From: a virus | Direction: 5' to 3' (one strand) | DNA length: 39,849 nucleotides | Virus record (IMG/VR): IMGVR_UViG_3300008110_000140 | Location: 1 to 39,849 of that record | Shown here: one piece after another, positions 33,648 to 39,849 of the stretch | Layout: every line of letters starts with the position of its first letter | How positions within the stretch are numbered: the first letter of the stretch is position 1 | Program-made: the position numbers and the translations under genes | The notes under the pieces: model-generated | The model's input: only the letters and a program-made list of their open reading frames with translations | Told to the model about the DNA's origin: nothing | Database searches by the model: none

Positions 33648-33962
33648 TTATTCTTGGAAATAGTTCCAATTATCACACAAAAGACGGTAGATAGGCTCCT
33701 CAAGTTTGTAGACGAGCTCGTGCGGGATCGAGATCTGATACTCGAATTCCAGGGCGTGCAGGAGCTCGTGGATCAGCGTCTTGGCTTGCTCGCGCTTGCC
33801 AATGCCGAGACGGACACAAATCTCTTTATCGTCGTCATTGCAGAGGCCGACCGTTTCTTTACCCGCTGACCGTTTATCGTCGATCTTGCGGACAAAACGG
33901 ATATCCCACACCGTCTCACCGACGACCACAGTGCGCGGGATATCCTTGAGGCGCCACGTCAT
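33648..33962 (-). CDS. HExxH putative zinc metallopeptidase
   Basis: A 104-residue protein. I chose ATG 33962 (MTWRLKD), which overlaps the metallophosphoesterase stop as TGATG; the longer frame to 34034 lies inside that gene. Residues 63-74 contain LIHELLHALEFE, a zincin HExxH motif with H65, E66 and H69. The following HELVYKLEEPIYRLL may supply a third ligand. A family of about 100-residue phage proteins with this motif and a following 'HELV...LE' helix is widespread in phage genomes, but the substrate is unknown. No signal peptide. It lies directly upstream of terL, 17 bases away. Confidence 0.7.
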   Translation of the reverse strand: MTWRLKDIPRTVVVGETVWDIRFVRKIDDKRSAGKETVGLCNDDDKEICVRLGIGKREQAKTLIHELLHALEFEYQISIPHELVYKLEEPIYRLLCDNWNYFQE

Positions 33963-34657
33963 CACGGCATCCTTTCGTAAGGGATGAGGATCGGTGTCAG
34001 CCCACCATCGACGACCACGCCAACACCCAGCCACGGCTTAAATTTGGCCGTCTTGCCGTAGGCAAAGGCATAGGCTCGGGTGTCAATCAAACACCCGACG
34101 TTCATCCCCCAGCGCTTTTTGTTTTCCGTCACGACATGGGCTATCCCGGCATTGGCATGCAGATGGCCGAAGACCACATTGACGCCCTTATCCAGCGCCG
34201 CCTGCCGGTAGGCTCCCGCCCCACTGTAGCCGCAGCCGTGAAAGAGATGCACCTTGGCCCGGGCCATAGAGATCGTCCAGTGATCGCGCCACTGCCAGCC
34301 GGAAGGGGCGCCGAGGATATCGCGGTACGTTTTGAGCAGGGTGCTGGGGATCCCGGCATGGGATGCCTTGCGTGCCCAGCGTTGGCCGTGGTTCGATACC
34401 GCCAGCTTCATTTCTGGAAAAGCCGCGTACCACTTCGCCAGGCGGCGCCGAGCCGCTTCCAGCTCGGAGTTGGGCGTATGGCGGGCGTCGGGGTCTTTTT
34501 CCCACATGCCGCCAAAGTAGCTATCGACCTCGTCACCGACGTTGAAGATCGCCGATTTGGGAATTTTAAATTCCCGCGCCACGGCTTGGACAAAGCGCAG
34601 GCTACCCGGTGCCTCGAAGGGGATCTGCAGATCGCTGATAAAAAGCGCTTTCCGCAT
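33962..34657 (-). CDS. Calcineurin-like metallophosphoesterase
   Basis: A 231-residue protein, ATG 34657. It has MPPE signature blocks: FISDLQIPF with D9, NVGDEVD with D42, SNHGQRW with N89-H90, HLFHGCG with H140, and FGHLHANA with H165/H167. The usual first-block His is replaced by Gln (D-L-Q), a variant common in phage members. Such enzymes hydrolyse phosphoesters; the substrate in phages may be DNA, cyclic nucleotides or protein. It is the first gene of the leftward block reading to terL, portal and capsid, so its start region controls that operon. Confidence 0.85.
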   Translation of the reverse strand: MRKALFISDLQIPFEAPGSLRFVQAVAREFKIPKSAIFNVGDEVDSYFGGMWEKDPDARHTPNSELEAARRRLAKWYAAFPEMKLAVSNHGQRWARKASHAGIPSTLLKTYRDILGAPSGWQWRDHWTISMARAKVHLFHGCGYSGAGAYRQAALDKGVNVVFGHLHANAGIAHVVTENKKRWGMNVGCLIDTRAYAFAYGKTAKFKPWLGVGVVVDGGLTPILIPYERMP

Positions 34658-35802: not shown

Positions 35803-36285
35803 CTACTGTTTATCGACCAGCTCCGCTTCCAGCACGTTCTGGACGAGACTGCCGTCGGCTTCGACGGTCGTCCTATAGATTACCGACGGCTTGGTCTCGA
35901 TCACCAGGTTACGCTGGTTATGGTATGTGGCAAGGGTCAGCTTGCAGGCCTCCAGCGCAATCTTTTCGTCTTCGTGGCTAATCAAGGCGCCAATCTTGCG
36001 GTGGGCACGGCGTACGTTCTGCTCTAAGAGCTCCATGGCCGAGCCGGTGAGGCGGTCATAGACTTCACGGAAGGCGGGCTTTTTCATGCGCCGCGCCACC
36101 GTCGACGGCGTCATGCCGCAGGCCTTGCCGAGCTCCGTCAGGTTCAAGGTTGGCCACTTAGAGAGGAGCTTAAGAATCTGCTTATCGACAACGTCCAGAT
36201 CACGGGCGTGAGCATAGGCGTCCAGCTTGGCCAGCAAGATGCGGTCCGCTGGATCAACCTCAAGCGTCAGCTCATCGGATGCCAT
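35803..36285 (-). CDS. Probable terminase small subunit (HTH)
   Basis: A 160-residue protein, ATG 36285, overlapping the upstream gene by 14 bases. Residues 33-72 (QILKLLSKWPTLNLTELGKA, CGMTPSTVARRMKKPAFREV) form a helix-turn-helix with the second helix STVARRM. A helical segment follows (YDRLTGSAMELLEQNVRRAH RKIGALI), then a beta C-terminal tail (VIYRTTVEADGSL). This domain order is typical of small terminase subunits that recognise the packaging site. Transcription is leftward like terL, although the rightward island lies between. A plain regulatory HTH protein is the alternative. Confidence 0.7.
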   Translation of the reverse strand: MASDELTLEVDPADRILLAKLDAYAHARDLDVVDKQILKLLSKWPTLNLTELGKACGMTPSTVARRMKKPAFREVYDRLTGSAMELLEQNVRRAHRKIGALISHEDEKIALEACKLTLATYHNQRNLVIETKPSVIYRTTVEADGSLVQNVLEAELVDKQ

Positions 36286-36538
36286 AGATCAGCACCGGGC
36301 TTTCTTCGCCGTCGAAGGCGCGGTAGGTGGCACTCTGCCAGTCGCCATAGACGACAAAGCGGGTCTTGTCGTGCGGCACCCGCGAGGCAAAGAGCGTCAC
36401 CGAGTAGGGCAGGGCCGCCCCCTCGACCACCCGGCGACGGCCGAGCCGGTCGTGGAAGGCAAAGGTCAAGACGCTGCCCGTCTTGTGGATGTCAATCTCT
36501 TGAGGCGGGTGCCAAGGGATCCCGATGAGATAGCGCAC
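36272..36538 (-). CDS. Hypothetical protein
   Basis: An 88-residue protein starting with GTG 36538 (VRYLIGIPW), preceded by GGGGAGG eight bases upstream and 4 bases after the previous stop. A longer ATG frame from 36637 overlaps the upstream gene and lacks support. Sequence: beta-rich, with HKTGSVLTFAFHDRLGRRRV, VEGAALPYSV, RFVVYGDWQSATYRAFDGEE. The family is not recognised. It may be a small nucleic-acid-related protein by neighbourhood only. It shares the same tight operon spacing as the genes on either side. Confidence 0.6.
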   Translation of the reverse strand: MRYLIGIPWHPPQEIDIHKTGSVLTFAFHDRLGRRRVVEGAALPYSVTLFASRVPHDKTRFVVYGDWQSATYRAFDGEESPVLIYGIR

Positions 36539-36542
36539 GCGG

Positions 36543-36785
36543 TCATCCTCCCCAGCCGTCCGTATCAATCCAGACAATGTCGGAACATCCCGGATGGCTA
36601 TCCATATGAATGGCGCGGAATTCTTCCAGGCTGGCATAAACCGTCAGGGTCGTTTTGGGAGCTCGCCACTCGACGACGACGCGCCCGGTCGGGTAGACGC
36701 AGCCCCACAGGACAACACCAGTGCCAGAGATGCCGCTCTCGTCAATGTCGCGGCGCAGACAAAAACGGCTGATCAAGCCTGACAT
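36543..36785 (-). CDS. Small conserved-type phage protein (DxSGxSGTGVV family)
   Basis: An 80-residue protein, ATG 36785 preceded by GGGGGG. Contains DIDESGISGTGVVLWGCVYP and TGRVVVEWRAPKTTLTVYAS LEEFRAIH. This resembles a small family I have seen in many phages with the pattern D-x-[ST]-G-x-SGTG-x-V-x-x-G ... W ... S-x-x-x-Y-x-S-x-[ED]-x-x-x-x-IH. Its function is not known. The family is usually encoded among early or replication-side genes, consistent with its place near SSB. Confidence 0.65.
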   Translation of the reverse strand: MSGLISRFCLRRDIDESGISGTGVVLWGCVYPTGRVVVEWRAPKTTLTVYASLEEFRAIHMDSHPGCSDIVWIDTDGWGG

Positions 36786-36788
36786 CTT

Positions 36789-36908
36789 TCACCCCCCACT
36801 ACGGGCGACCACCAAGGCAATGGCGACAGCCACGGCGTACGCCATGATCACCGGCGGCTCCATCGGCGCACGCTGCAGTGTGTCGATGGCGGCCTCAAAA
36901 ACCATCAT
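36789..36908 (-). CDS. Tiny membrane ORF between SSB and the next gene
   Basis: A 39-residue frame starting with ATGATG at 36908, overlapping the SSB 3' end by 14 bases and ending 3 bases before the next ATG. Residues about 18-36 (PPVIMAYAVAVAIALVVA) form one membrane segment. The region upstream has only a weak SD-like GGGGCGG. The exact fit between its neighbours and the hydrophobic run argue for a real small gene, but it is short enough to be chance. Confidence 0.4.
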   Translation of the reverse strand: MMVFEAAIDTLQRAPMEPPVIMAYAVAVAIALVVARSGG

Positions 36909-37260
36909 CCGCCCCGCTCGCAGCGGCGTCGTACGCGACAGGGTCGAGGAACTTAATTTGTTCCGCCGAGACTTTGGTCACCTTGAGGGAACGGCCCTCC
37001 TTCTCGTAGCTCTCCGTCCTCAGTCGACCCTCAACAAAAACCGTCGAGCCTTTGCGGAGGTAGCGTTTGCAGGAGACCGCTGTTTGTCCCCAGACGGTGA
37101 CCTTGTGGTGCTCCCAGAGAACCTTGTCCTCGCCACCTTCGCCTTTGGCAGGGGCGCGGTCCATCGTTGTGACGCTGAGGTTGGCCACTGGCACACCAGC
37201 CCGCGTTTCGCGCAGCTCAGGTTCAAACGACAGCTTTCCCATAAGCATGACCTTATTCAT
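36895..37260 (-). CDS. ssb: Single-stranded DNA-binding protein
   Basis: A 121-residue OB-fold protein, ATG 37260. Motifs: NKVMLMGKLSFEPELRET, ANLSVTTMDRAP, EHHKVTVWGQTAVSCKRYLR, KGSTVFVEGRLRTESYE, which is the standard bacterial/phage SSB core. The C-terminus GADDGF resembles the acidic tip that recruits replication proteins, but without the long Gly/Gln linker, so it is shorter than a typical bacterial SSB. It protects unwound DNA during phage replication and recombination. It lies near the helicase and VRR-NUC genes, and has its own candidate promoter and a 14-bp palindrome in the leader. Confidence 0.93.
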   Translation of the reverse strand: MNKVMLMGKLSFEPELRETRAGVPVANLSVTTMDRAPAKGEGGEDKVLWEHHKVTVWGQTAVSCKRYLRKGSTVFVEGRLRTESYEKEGRSLKVTKVSAEQIKFLDPVAYDAAASGADDGF

Positions 37261-37476: not shown

Positions 37477-37659
37477 CTAGTTTTTGCCAAACCTGGCAAA
37501 CACCACATTATCGGGGCGCCGCTTGGTCCAGGTTTCGTAGACGATCCACAGACCAAACAGCGGCGAGGTGGCAACAAAGGCGACGTAGAAGAGGCCGCAG
37601 GCTATGGCTTGGCCAAACCGGTAGGCTAGGCGCCTGGCGGTCGATTCGTGCATGCTCAT
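37477..37659 (-). CDS. Small membrane protein
   Basis: A 60-residue protein, ATG 37659 overlapping the VRR-NUC stop as ATGA and preceded by GGGAG. I reject the longer frame to 37728, which lies inside VRR-NUC. Residues 18-40 (QAIACGLFYVAFVATSPLFG, LWI) form one membrane segment, flanked by Arg-rich ends (TARRLAYR; TKRRPDN). Nothing more can be assigned. It could be a membrane anchor or a host-interaction protein. Confidence 0.6.
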   Translation of the reverse strand: MSMHESTARRLAYRFGQAIACGLFYVAFVATSPLFGLWIVYETWTKRRPDNVVFARFGKN

Positions 37660-38024
37660 TGGATCTCTCCCAGCTCGCGAAAGAACGCCTCGAGGTCGCC
37701 AACGTAGCGCACCACCCTCACAGCACACCCAGCATGGCGGAGCTTAGTCAGCCACTCCTCTTGGCTTTTGCTTAGACGCCCCTTGGTGCTTTTAAACTCC
37801 ACAGCCCACATCCTCCCTGGCTGCGTGCGCGAGCAGACGCCGGCAATGTCAGGAAAGCCCCGCAGTGGGTTTTGCGCATAGACGCGGCCGCCAGCCTTAA
37901 GCACCGGCCCCAGCGCCATCCGCCAGGCAAGAATGCCGCGCACTTTCAGCCATGCCAGGGCATTTCGTTGCAGCAGCGCCTCCGGCGAAACGAAACGCTT
38001 GACCGCCAAGCCTTTGCGAGCCAT
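37656..38024 (-). CDS. VRR-NUC domain nuclease (PD-(D/E)xK)
   Basis: A 122-residue protein, ATG 38024 with GGAGGGCAT upstream. The core is NPLRGFPDIAGVCSRTQPGR MWAVEFKSTKGRLSKSQEEW, giving the VRR-NUC pattern: D in GFPDI, E-x-K in VEFKSTKG, and Q in LSKSQEEW, then RHAGCAVRVVR. Single-domain VRR-NUC proteins of about 100-150 residues are common in phages and cleave branched or flap DNA; the precise reaction here is not established. It lies in the replication block with SSB and the helicase. Confidence 0.88.
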   Translation of the reverse strand: MARKGLAVKRFVSPEALLQRNALAWLKVRGILAWRMALGPVLKAGGRVYAQNPLRGFPDIAGVCSRTQPGRMWAVEFKSTKGRLSKSQEEWLTKLRHAGCAVRVVRYVGDLEAFFRELGEIQ

Positions 38025-38193: not shown

Positions 38194-38913
38194 CTAGCGC
38201 TTGTGGGCTGATCCCCCAGACGGCCTGAGCCCGAGCGAGAGATTGACGTCGCCGAGCGGGATGACGGCATCATGCAACCCACCTTTAAGCACACGCAGAG
38301 CCCGCAGGTTGGCATCAATCGCGTCCCTTTGCTCGACCAGGCTGAGCACGACGTCGGCCATCTGACGAATGACCTCGACAGTATTCCCCGGCGCGCCTTC
38401 GGTGGTCGTCGCCACGCACGGCACATTTCTCTCGGCCAGCAGCACCTTGACCCGCGCCAGCCAGTCGGTGAGAAGATCGTCGTCCAGGAGCAGCGGCTCC
38501 CCGCCGTTGGTGAGCTCCTCAAGGCGGCTCAGCACCACCAGGCCAGTGTCCGGCGTCACCGTCTCGCGAAGGTAGCGCTCAACCGATTGCACCGTCGGCT
38601 GATCGGGGGTGAACTGGCGGAGCGTCTGGTTGTGGAAGCGCCAGCGCGTTTTCTCGGCCGGGACCGAGGCCTTTTTAGCCGGCTGCTTGGTCCCGAGAAG
38701 AGCGGCCTCCACCCGTGCCGGAAAGTCTTCCGGGTGATGTTCGGTCGAGACCACAACCACATCCTTTTCGGAGCGCAGCGTCGCGGCGGCTAGGTGGGCC
38801 GCCAGCTGGCTTTTTTCGTCGCTGTGCTGGCCGACAATGACGGTCAGTTTACCGTCTGGTAGGCCACCGTTTAAAGTTTTGTCGAGACTTTGTAATGCAG
38901 TCGAGATAGGCAC
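38194..38913 (-). CDS. DnaB/RecA-like fold protein with degenerate Walker A and B motifs
   Basis: A 239-residue protein, GTG 38913 with a perfect AAGGAGG seven bases upstream. The N-terminal layout (STALQSLDKTLNGGLPDGKL, then TVIVGQHSDEKSQLAAHLAA, VVVVSTEHH) follows the DnaB C-terminal/KaiC pattern: LD-x-x-L-x-GG, P-loop, then the E-x-x helix. The P-loop GQHSDEKS (28-35) has Glu33 where the second Gly of GxxxxGK[ST] should be. The Walker B strand LVVLSRLEE has Ser129 in place of Asp. Catalytic ATPase activity is therefore doubtful. It directly follows the real DnaB-type helicase and probably arose by duplication. A helicase-loading or regulatory partner is inferred. Confidence 0.72.
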   Translation of the reverse strand: MPISTALQSLDKTLNGGLPDGKLTVIVGQHSDEKSQLAAHLAAATLRSEKDVVVVSTEHHPEDFPARVEAALLGTKQPAKKASVPAEKTRWRFHNQTLRQFTPDQPTVQSVERYLRETVTPDTGLVVLSRLEELTNGGEPLLLDDDLLTDWLARVKVLLAERNVPCVATTTEGAPGNTVEVIRQMADVVLSLVEQRDAIDANLRALRVLKGGLHDAVIPLGDVNLSLGLRPSGGSAHKR

Positions 38914-38928
38914 GAAAACCTCCTTAGA

Positions 38929-39015
38929 CTAGTCGGCCGTGCTGTGCAAACGGCGCACCATATCGCGGGTGAACCGTCGGGTTGTTGAAAAAAGAGTAAA
39001 TGCGAGCTCTGTCAT
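38929..39015 (-). CDS. Tiny ORF between helicase and its degenerate paralog
   Basis: 28 residues, ATG 39015 overlapping the helicase stop as ATGA and ending 15 bases before the next GTG. Basic and helical (STTRRFTRDMVRRLHSTAD). Tight coupling supports translation; it may be a small peptide or just a ribosome-passing segment. No function can be assigned. Confidence 0.3.
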   Translation of the reverse strand: MTELAFTLFSTTRRFTRDMVRRLHSTAD

Positions 39016-39849
39016 AGCGTTTCGTCCGGGATGCCTATGTCGGTGATTTTGCCAAAGTGCATATCGTTGCGCATTCTTAGCGCCCGGCGCTCGCCCTCGC
39101 GGTTTTTTGCAATCAGCAGCTCAATCGGCGGCGCCATGTCGCTGCGCTCGGGTGCGAGGCGGTGCAAAAACATGATGTTGTCGCCGTGACGCTCCAGGTA
39201 GCCGCACTCCGCCAGGTCTTTGAGACGCGGGCGACAGTCGTCAGCGGCGCGGTTGATCTGCGCCAAAACCAACACAGCCGTCTCCTTGTGCTTGCCGACC
39301 AGCGTTTTAAACATGTTGGAGACGTCGCCATACTCGCGGTGCAGGTTCTCCTGATTGCGGGCGGTGCGAAAATCCTGCAGGTAGTCGATAACAATCAGGT
39401 CCAGGCCAACGCGGTGGTGGGTCGCCTGAGCGTAGGCCACGGCTTTTTCGGCCGAGCTTTGCGAGCGGTCCCAGATCTCGAGAAAATTGATTTCCTGCGC
39501 CTTGCCGACCGTGTCGAGAAACTTGGTGGTATCGCGCTCGGTCCACTGCTTGTCGCGGAATTTACCCAGGTCAAAATCGCCGAGGGCGCCCATCGCTTTG
39601 CGGATGATGCGGCGGGCTGACATCTCGTTTGAGATGTAAAGCACCTTGGCGCCACTTTGCGCCGCAGCGAGAGCCATTTGCAGGCTGACCGACGTCTTGC
39701 CGACCGAGGGCCGGGCGGCAAGGAGGTTGTAAGTCCCCCGCTCAAAGCCGCCACCCAGGTAGGTGTCCAGACGGTCGATGCCGGTGGTGATAAAGTCGCG
39801 ATTTTCCTTAGAGGTGAGAAACACCTCGATCTCGTCGGAGAGCACCCGG
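39012..39849 (-). CDS. Replicative DNA helicase, DnaB-like C-terminal ATPase domain (5' end outside window)
   Basis: The reading frame is open to the right edge, so the N-terminus is missing; the first possible start inside the window, GTG 39845, is probably internal. The visible part is a DnaB C-terminal domain: TGIDRLDTYLGGG, Walker A ARPSVGKTS, ISNEMSA with the conserved Glu, Walker B DLIVIDYLQDF, then LVLAQINRAADD (motif H3-like), and ECGYLERHGDNIMFLHR with IAKNREGE. It unwinds DNA 5'-3' as a hexamer in phage replication. It is followed by a near-paralog whose motifs are broken. A DnaB N-terminal domain cannot be judged. Confidence 0.92.
   Translation of the reverse strand, partial: RVLSDEIEVFLTSKENRDFITTGIDRLDTYLGGGFERGTYNLLAARPSVGKTSVSLQMALAAAQSGAKVLYISNEMSARRIIRKAMGALGDFDLGKFRDKQWTERDTTKFLDTVGKAQEINFLEIWDRSQSSAEKAVAYAQATHHRVGLDLIVIDYLQDFRTARNQENLHREYGDVSNMFKTLVGKHKETAVLVLAQINRAADDCRPRLKDLAECGYLERHGDNIMFLHRLAPERSDMAPPIELLIAKNREGERRALRMRNDMHFGKITDIGIPDETL

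Follow-up and report, generated by a model that had tools for sequence, protein, structure and literature searches.

A RecA-fold protein with degenerate Walker motifs encoded beside the replicative helicase of a tailed phage

A gene encoding a RecA-fold protein, in which the P-loop glycine and the Walker B aspartate have both been replaced, was identified next to the replicative helicase of a tailed phage. The phage is represented by a 39,849-base IMG/VR record (the window, i.e., the whole stretch of DNA analysed), which carries terminase, portal, head, tape-measure and tail genes. The protein, P0001, retains the fold and most likely lacks ATP hydrolysis; we put it at about an even chance that it serves the DNA replication and recombination module of the phage as a structural accessory, without hydrolysing ATP. 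The gene and its catalytic positions are as follows:

38194-38913, minus strand: P0001, a 239-aa RecA-fold protein with degenerate Walker A and Walker B motifs and a GTG start
38919-38925, minus strand: perfect Shine-Dalgarno sequence, AAGGAGG, 5 nt ahead of the GTG start
38809-38832, minus strand: P-loop equivalent GQHSDEKS (residues 28-35), Gly replaced by Glu33, Lys34 and Ser35 kept
38740-38742, minus strand: E58 in VVVSTEH, retained where the catalytic Glu follows beta-2
38527-38541, minus strand: Walker B equivalent LVVLS (residues 125-129), Asp replaced by Ser129; strand E123-129 in the model

P0001 is an intact, well-coding and real gene with a strong Shine-Dalgarno sequence, and its strand and coordinates were exactly those of the open reading frame (ORF) in the initial annotation. 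Its codon score in frame was 0.23, within the range of neighbouring genes, while all other frames were negative; G-C content by codon position (0.71/0.43/0.75) also resembled that of the neighbours. Sequencing error was judged an unlikely source of the substitutions, because the change from Asp to Ser (AGC) takes two base changes and because two separate motifs are affected. An assembly chimera at this locus was ruled out, since the order of helicase, VRR-NUC, single-strand DNA-binding protein (SSB) and terminase is also found in related phages, whose helicases group with this one.

The catalytic columns of P0001 were compared with those of 58 further RecA-like ORFs, all distinct, from the loci retrieved. 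The column of E33 (codon 38815-38817) was Gly in all 54 ORFs that were readable there, and that of S129 (codon 38527-38529) was Asp in all 51 readable ORFs; P0001 was the sole exception at both positions among the ORFs compared. At the column of K34, Lys was present in each of the 54 readable ORFs of the 58. Of the signatures of an active ATPase, the Walker A pattern GxxxxGK[ST] and the Walker B Asp are missing from P0001, while the catalytic Glu (E58) is present, and the hydrophobic core and helices are kept although the two catalytic positions conserved most strongly are lost. The initial annotation had named both substitutions correctly; its description of both Walker motifs as destroyed holds for the Gly and the Asp and is slightly too strong for a protein that keeps K34, S35 and E58. 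It had also named active Walker residues elsewhere in the protein as grounds for rejecting its reading, and none were seen in the sequence. The alignment further suggests that the sensor Gln is replaced by Thr, and the K-x-R arginine finger seems to have been lost, with LKGG where DnaB has AKNRNG; the placement of both is less certain. A Glu in the P-loop abolishes ATP binding, so that binding, as well as hydrolysis, has probably been lost from P0001. The residues that were kept (K34, S35 and E58) could mean that some nucleotide binding persists or that the loss is recent.

Several lines of evidence placed P0001 within the RecA fold. Pfam matches to AAA_25 (E 2e-7, 31 bits) and KaiC (E 3.5e-7, 30 bits) were above curated cut-offs, and a match to DnaB_C (E 2e-4) was under its cut-off. 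Against a DnaB-domain profile made without P0001 the protein scored 54.3 bits, where the best of 2000 shuffles reached 7.0; the C-terminal half alone was borderline (4.8 bits versus 4.1 for the best shuffle), its sequence support being weak. The RecA fold is not due to chance. A single-sequence AlphaFold2 model was poor and uninformative (pLDDT 44), while the model built with an alignment reached pLDDT 82.8 and pTM 0.83, that alignment consisting of 24 distant RecA-like rows from the fetched loci, many of them DnaB domains, which biases the model towards their fold. All fold elements were predicted, including the P-loop strand and helix, beta-2 with its Glu, the Walker B strand and the later strands, in this model whose alignment included distant relatives. 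Nearly 1000 PDB chains aligned to it at Z >= 8 (best Z 21.6), and by Foldseek and VIA-align RecA, DnaB, T7 gp4, RadA, RAD51D and KaiC were tied at Z ~20-21.6. Profile matches, AlphaFold2 with alignment and structure search therefore agreed that a RecA/DnaB-type fold is retained, as first proposed; structure prediction and search, which the initial annotation had suggested as a check, placed P0001 inside the RecA fold and not outside it.

The proposal that P0001 is a paralog of the neighbouring helicase was not supported. Pairwise BLASTP between the two proteins was insignificant, the KaiC, AAA_25 and ArlH families scored above DnaB, and AU tests on a tree of 26 rows, with RecA, RadA, KaiC, UvsX, Sak4, gp41 and DnaB, rejected a sister relation of P0001 to the local helicase (p = 0.004) and likewise to the lineage this helicase belongs to (p = 0.005). 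A tree of 47 rows, which includes overlapping rows, agreed against P0001 being a duplicate of the adjacent DnaB (p = 0.03). On the 26-row tree, kinship with Sak4 of HK620 and phi11, whose rows sat on very long branches, gave p = 0.17 and a wider grouping with DnaB and gp41 gave p = 0.22, neither being rejected. Dead proteins evolve fast, and long-branch effects on the placement of P0001 are therefore possible, such that rejection of the sister relation is not absolute. P0001 does share its fold with the RecA domain of the DnaB-type phage helicase (Z 21.6, 3.0 A over 213 residues), and their genes adjoin; however, P0001 begins at the RecA core, without the N-terminal domain and linker, its LKGG stands in place of AKNRNG, its catalytic residues are lost, and the tree is against descent from the local helicase. 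Its best profile matches were single-domain ATPases of the KaiC, AAA_25 and ArlH families (ArlH over residues 8-192), which resemble it in being core only and 230-245 aa long. These families carry the Walker A Gly, whereas P0001 has Glu33 and Ser129 and scores far under the NCBIfam family cut-offs. Judged by its sequence, P0001 is a core-only RecA-superfamily protein whose branch was not settled by the trees, and not a duplicate of the local helicase. The observation behind the initial annotation was real and correctly seen, while its helicase-paralog reading was over-interpreted.

The neighbouring features of P0001 are as follows:

39012-39848, minus strand: RecA domain of a DnaB-type replicative helicase, catalytic residues kept; the 5' end (N-terminal part) is cut by the contig end
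38929-39015, minus strand: 28-aa ORF (MTELAFTLFSTTRRFTRDMVRRLHSTAD) that overlaps the stop codon of the helicase through ATGA and runs to a point just ahead of the P0001 Shine-Dalgarno sequence
37656-38024, minus strand: VRR-NUC nuclease, the next gene downstream of P0001, conserved in related phages
36895-37260, minus strand: SSB, with an acidic C-terminal tip ending DDGF

The helicase is real, as initially annotated, and has its catalytic residues. P0001 is the next large gene, and the 98 bp gap between them is filled by the 28-aa ORF; this, together with the overlap at the helicase stop, suggests that helicase and P0001 lie in one transcription unit and would be co-transcribed. A role for the short ORF in translational coupling, or as a leader peptide, is possible. 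Searches with the terminase and phosphoesterase identified related phages, of which three had the helicase (G001, G002 and G003, ~49-50 kb each). Given their length and the truncation of the helicase, roughly 10 kb of the present genome may be absent from the contig.

In G001 and G002, small ORFs lie between DnaB and a following VRR-NUC; in G003 the order is DnaB, a 93-aa ORF, SSB, and a VRR-NUC-like ORF is found at another place. P0001 was absent from all three in a BLAST-level search, both at the same place and anywhere in the record. P0001 is therefore specific to its lineage, in a slot of variable content flanked by DnaB and VRR-NUC, and is no core part of the replisome. Upstream of the helicase, G001 and G003 encode ERF annealing proteins and G002 has a weak RecT-like match under the cut-off, and recombination in this phage group is therefore independent of P0001; the corresponding part of the P0001 genome lies beyond the contig. 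Elsewhere in IMG/VR (contigs L084, L085, L086, L092-L095 and L098), a UvsX-like RecA-fold ORF was found just upstream of a gp41-type helicase, which is the gene order of T4. Because other phages pair a recombinase with a helicase in this way, a RecA-fold protein in such a position is unremarkable, and what stands out in P0001 is the dead active site.

Other features of the region were also observed. In locus L002 (4977-5527), the slot of P0001 is occupied by a tandem pair of similar ORFs (92 and 91 aa; MNIIDAIKSG and MNIIEAIKSG), and ORFs resembling this pair occur in G002 (L053, 468-719) and G003 (L104, 1222-1479). A small membrane-protein-like ORF (37477-37728, minus strand) lies between VRR-NUC and SSB, its C-terminus (RRPDNVVFARFGKN) resembling L003 131-469 (HRADNVVFANFKKSR). 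A 121-aa ORF (36272-36637, minus strand) had no family match, and similar ORFs occupy the same place in L003 (1275-1568) and L004 (445-732). Close upstream of the terminase is a metallophosphoesterase (33962-34657, minus strand; phrog_221) that is 70-75% identical among the nearest phages and has relatives in 40 IMG/VR loci.

No close relatives of P0001 were found in IMG/VR, GTDB genomes (85,000 bacterial and archaeal), GenBank phages, plasmids or 20 related virus records, in scans resting on short conserved peptides or BLAST-level similarity, which distant relatives can escape. The best GenBank phage matches were of 22-24% to T4-type gp41, and those IMG/VR matches that were inspected were ordinary DnaB-type helicases with intact P-loops. 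A terminase search for the phage host among bacterial genomes gave no match. In agreement with the initial annotation, which knew of no such phage system, the literature searched held no described phage pair of a helicase and a dead RecA-fold protein.

Further parallels were found among eukaryotic recombination mediators and phage RecA cores. Psy3/Csm2 of the Shu complex are Walker-poor Rad51-fold mediators (PMC4518479), and RIP-1 is a RAD51-fold mediator with no or little Walker sequence (PMC6957567). P0001 shares with them a RecA/Rad51 fold and the absence or near absence of Walker motifs, the mediator action being theirs; they differ in being eukaryotic and heteromeric, and the likeness is one of fold and motif loss. 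RadB and core proteins of mycobacteriophages begin at the RecA core without a DnaB-type N-domain and linker, like P0001, and one of the latter, D29 Gp65, is reported as a nuclease (PMC4523182). Lactococcal GP46 is likewise a phage-encoded RecA core and is a helicase, but it keeps all of its catalytic residues (PMC8965321).

The preferred reading, that P0001 is a structural accessory, is supported by its operon neighbours (helicase, VRR-NUC and SSB). For its partner and role on DNA, analogy with Psy3/Csm2, RIP-1 and the core-only phage RecA proteins most likely points to the following. P0001, having lost ATP hydrolysis and probably ATP binding, would be expressed from the transcription unit of the DnaB helicase; its RecA core would dock onto a RecA-fold protein (the phage helicase, host RecA or RadA) or onto SSB-coated ssDNA, and would then cap, stabilise or remodel the target complex in the manner of Walker-poor RAD51-fold mediators. 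Against this, the searched databases held no relative with the same defects, and selection on the dead state therefore cannot be shown. A more specific form, in which P0001 is a catalytically dead phage mediator comparable to Psy3/Csm2 or RIP-1, docking on the DnaB ring or on a recombinase filament and regulating it without ATP, is put forward tentatively and is rather improbable as it stands.

The replication and recombination neighbourhood fits a recombination accessory as well as it fits the loader, brake or primase recruiter that the initial annotation had suggested. A dedicated helicase partner, one that loads, opens or brakes the adjacent DnaB ring by binding to its RecA domains, would account for the position of P0001 as next large gene behind the short ORF that overlaps the helicase stop, and for its best VIA-align matches, which were DnaB domains (Z 21-21.6, tied with RadA, RAD51D and RecA), albeit for a model with many DnaB domains in its alignment. 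Yet P0001 has no linker helix, which joins DnaB subunits, only ~20% identity is left, and it does not derive from the local helicase. A loader or brake is not favoured because the related phages keep DnaB without P0001, and we regard such a partnership as possible but on the unlikely side.

That P0001 is a degenerate annealing protein of the Sak4/RadB kind, which acts together with the phage SSB and has lost its need for ATP, is a doubtful alternative. Core-only recombinases of this kind, found in phages and archaea, are close to P0001 in layout and length (226 aa for HK620 Sak4), an SSB gene is likewise nearby in the P0001 cluster, and the Sak4 clade was not rejected by the AU test. Sak4 of HK620 binds SSB-coated ssDNA, but requires ATP for both DNA binding and annealing (PMC5928155), has Walker A and B motifs, and showed no specific sequence similarity to P0001, i.e., none better than general RecA-fold similarity; moreover, the ERF and RecT-like genes of the relatives lie upstream of the helicase, in the part beyond this contig. 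P0001 is not assigned to the Sak4 or GP46 groups, because both keep their Walker motifs.

Gene decay, in which a recently acquired KaiC/RecA-type ATPase is heading for loss, would be consistent with a singleton absent from related phages that still has K34, S35 and E58 in place; it is less likely given the intact frame, neighbour-like codon use, perfect ribosome-binding site and complete set of predicted fold elements, and was considered improbable. Least probable, and very unlikely, is an accessory decoy against the host (a poison subunit of host RecA, RadA or DnaB, or a counter-defence protein), which would suit a slot of varying content, but P0001 at ~20% identity is too divergent for easy co-assembly by a conserved interface, and a defence library gave no convincing match for it.

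Phages are already known to encode core-only RecA proteins, and P0001, with its dead active site, is a variant of this kind. In eukaryotic recombination, RecA folds without enzymatic activity are known to regulate active ones, and no description of such a fold in a phage replication operon was found in the literature searched. As a singleton, P0001 is a lead, and its interest stays modest unless relatives or a partner emerge. Should P0001 bind the helicase or a recombinase, it would offer a small system in which to test how a RecA fold changes from motor to scaffold.
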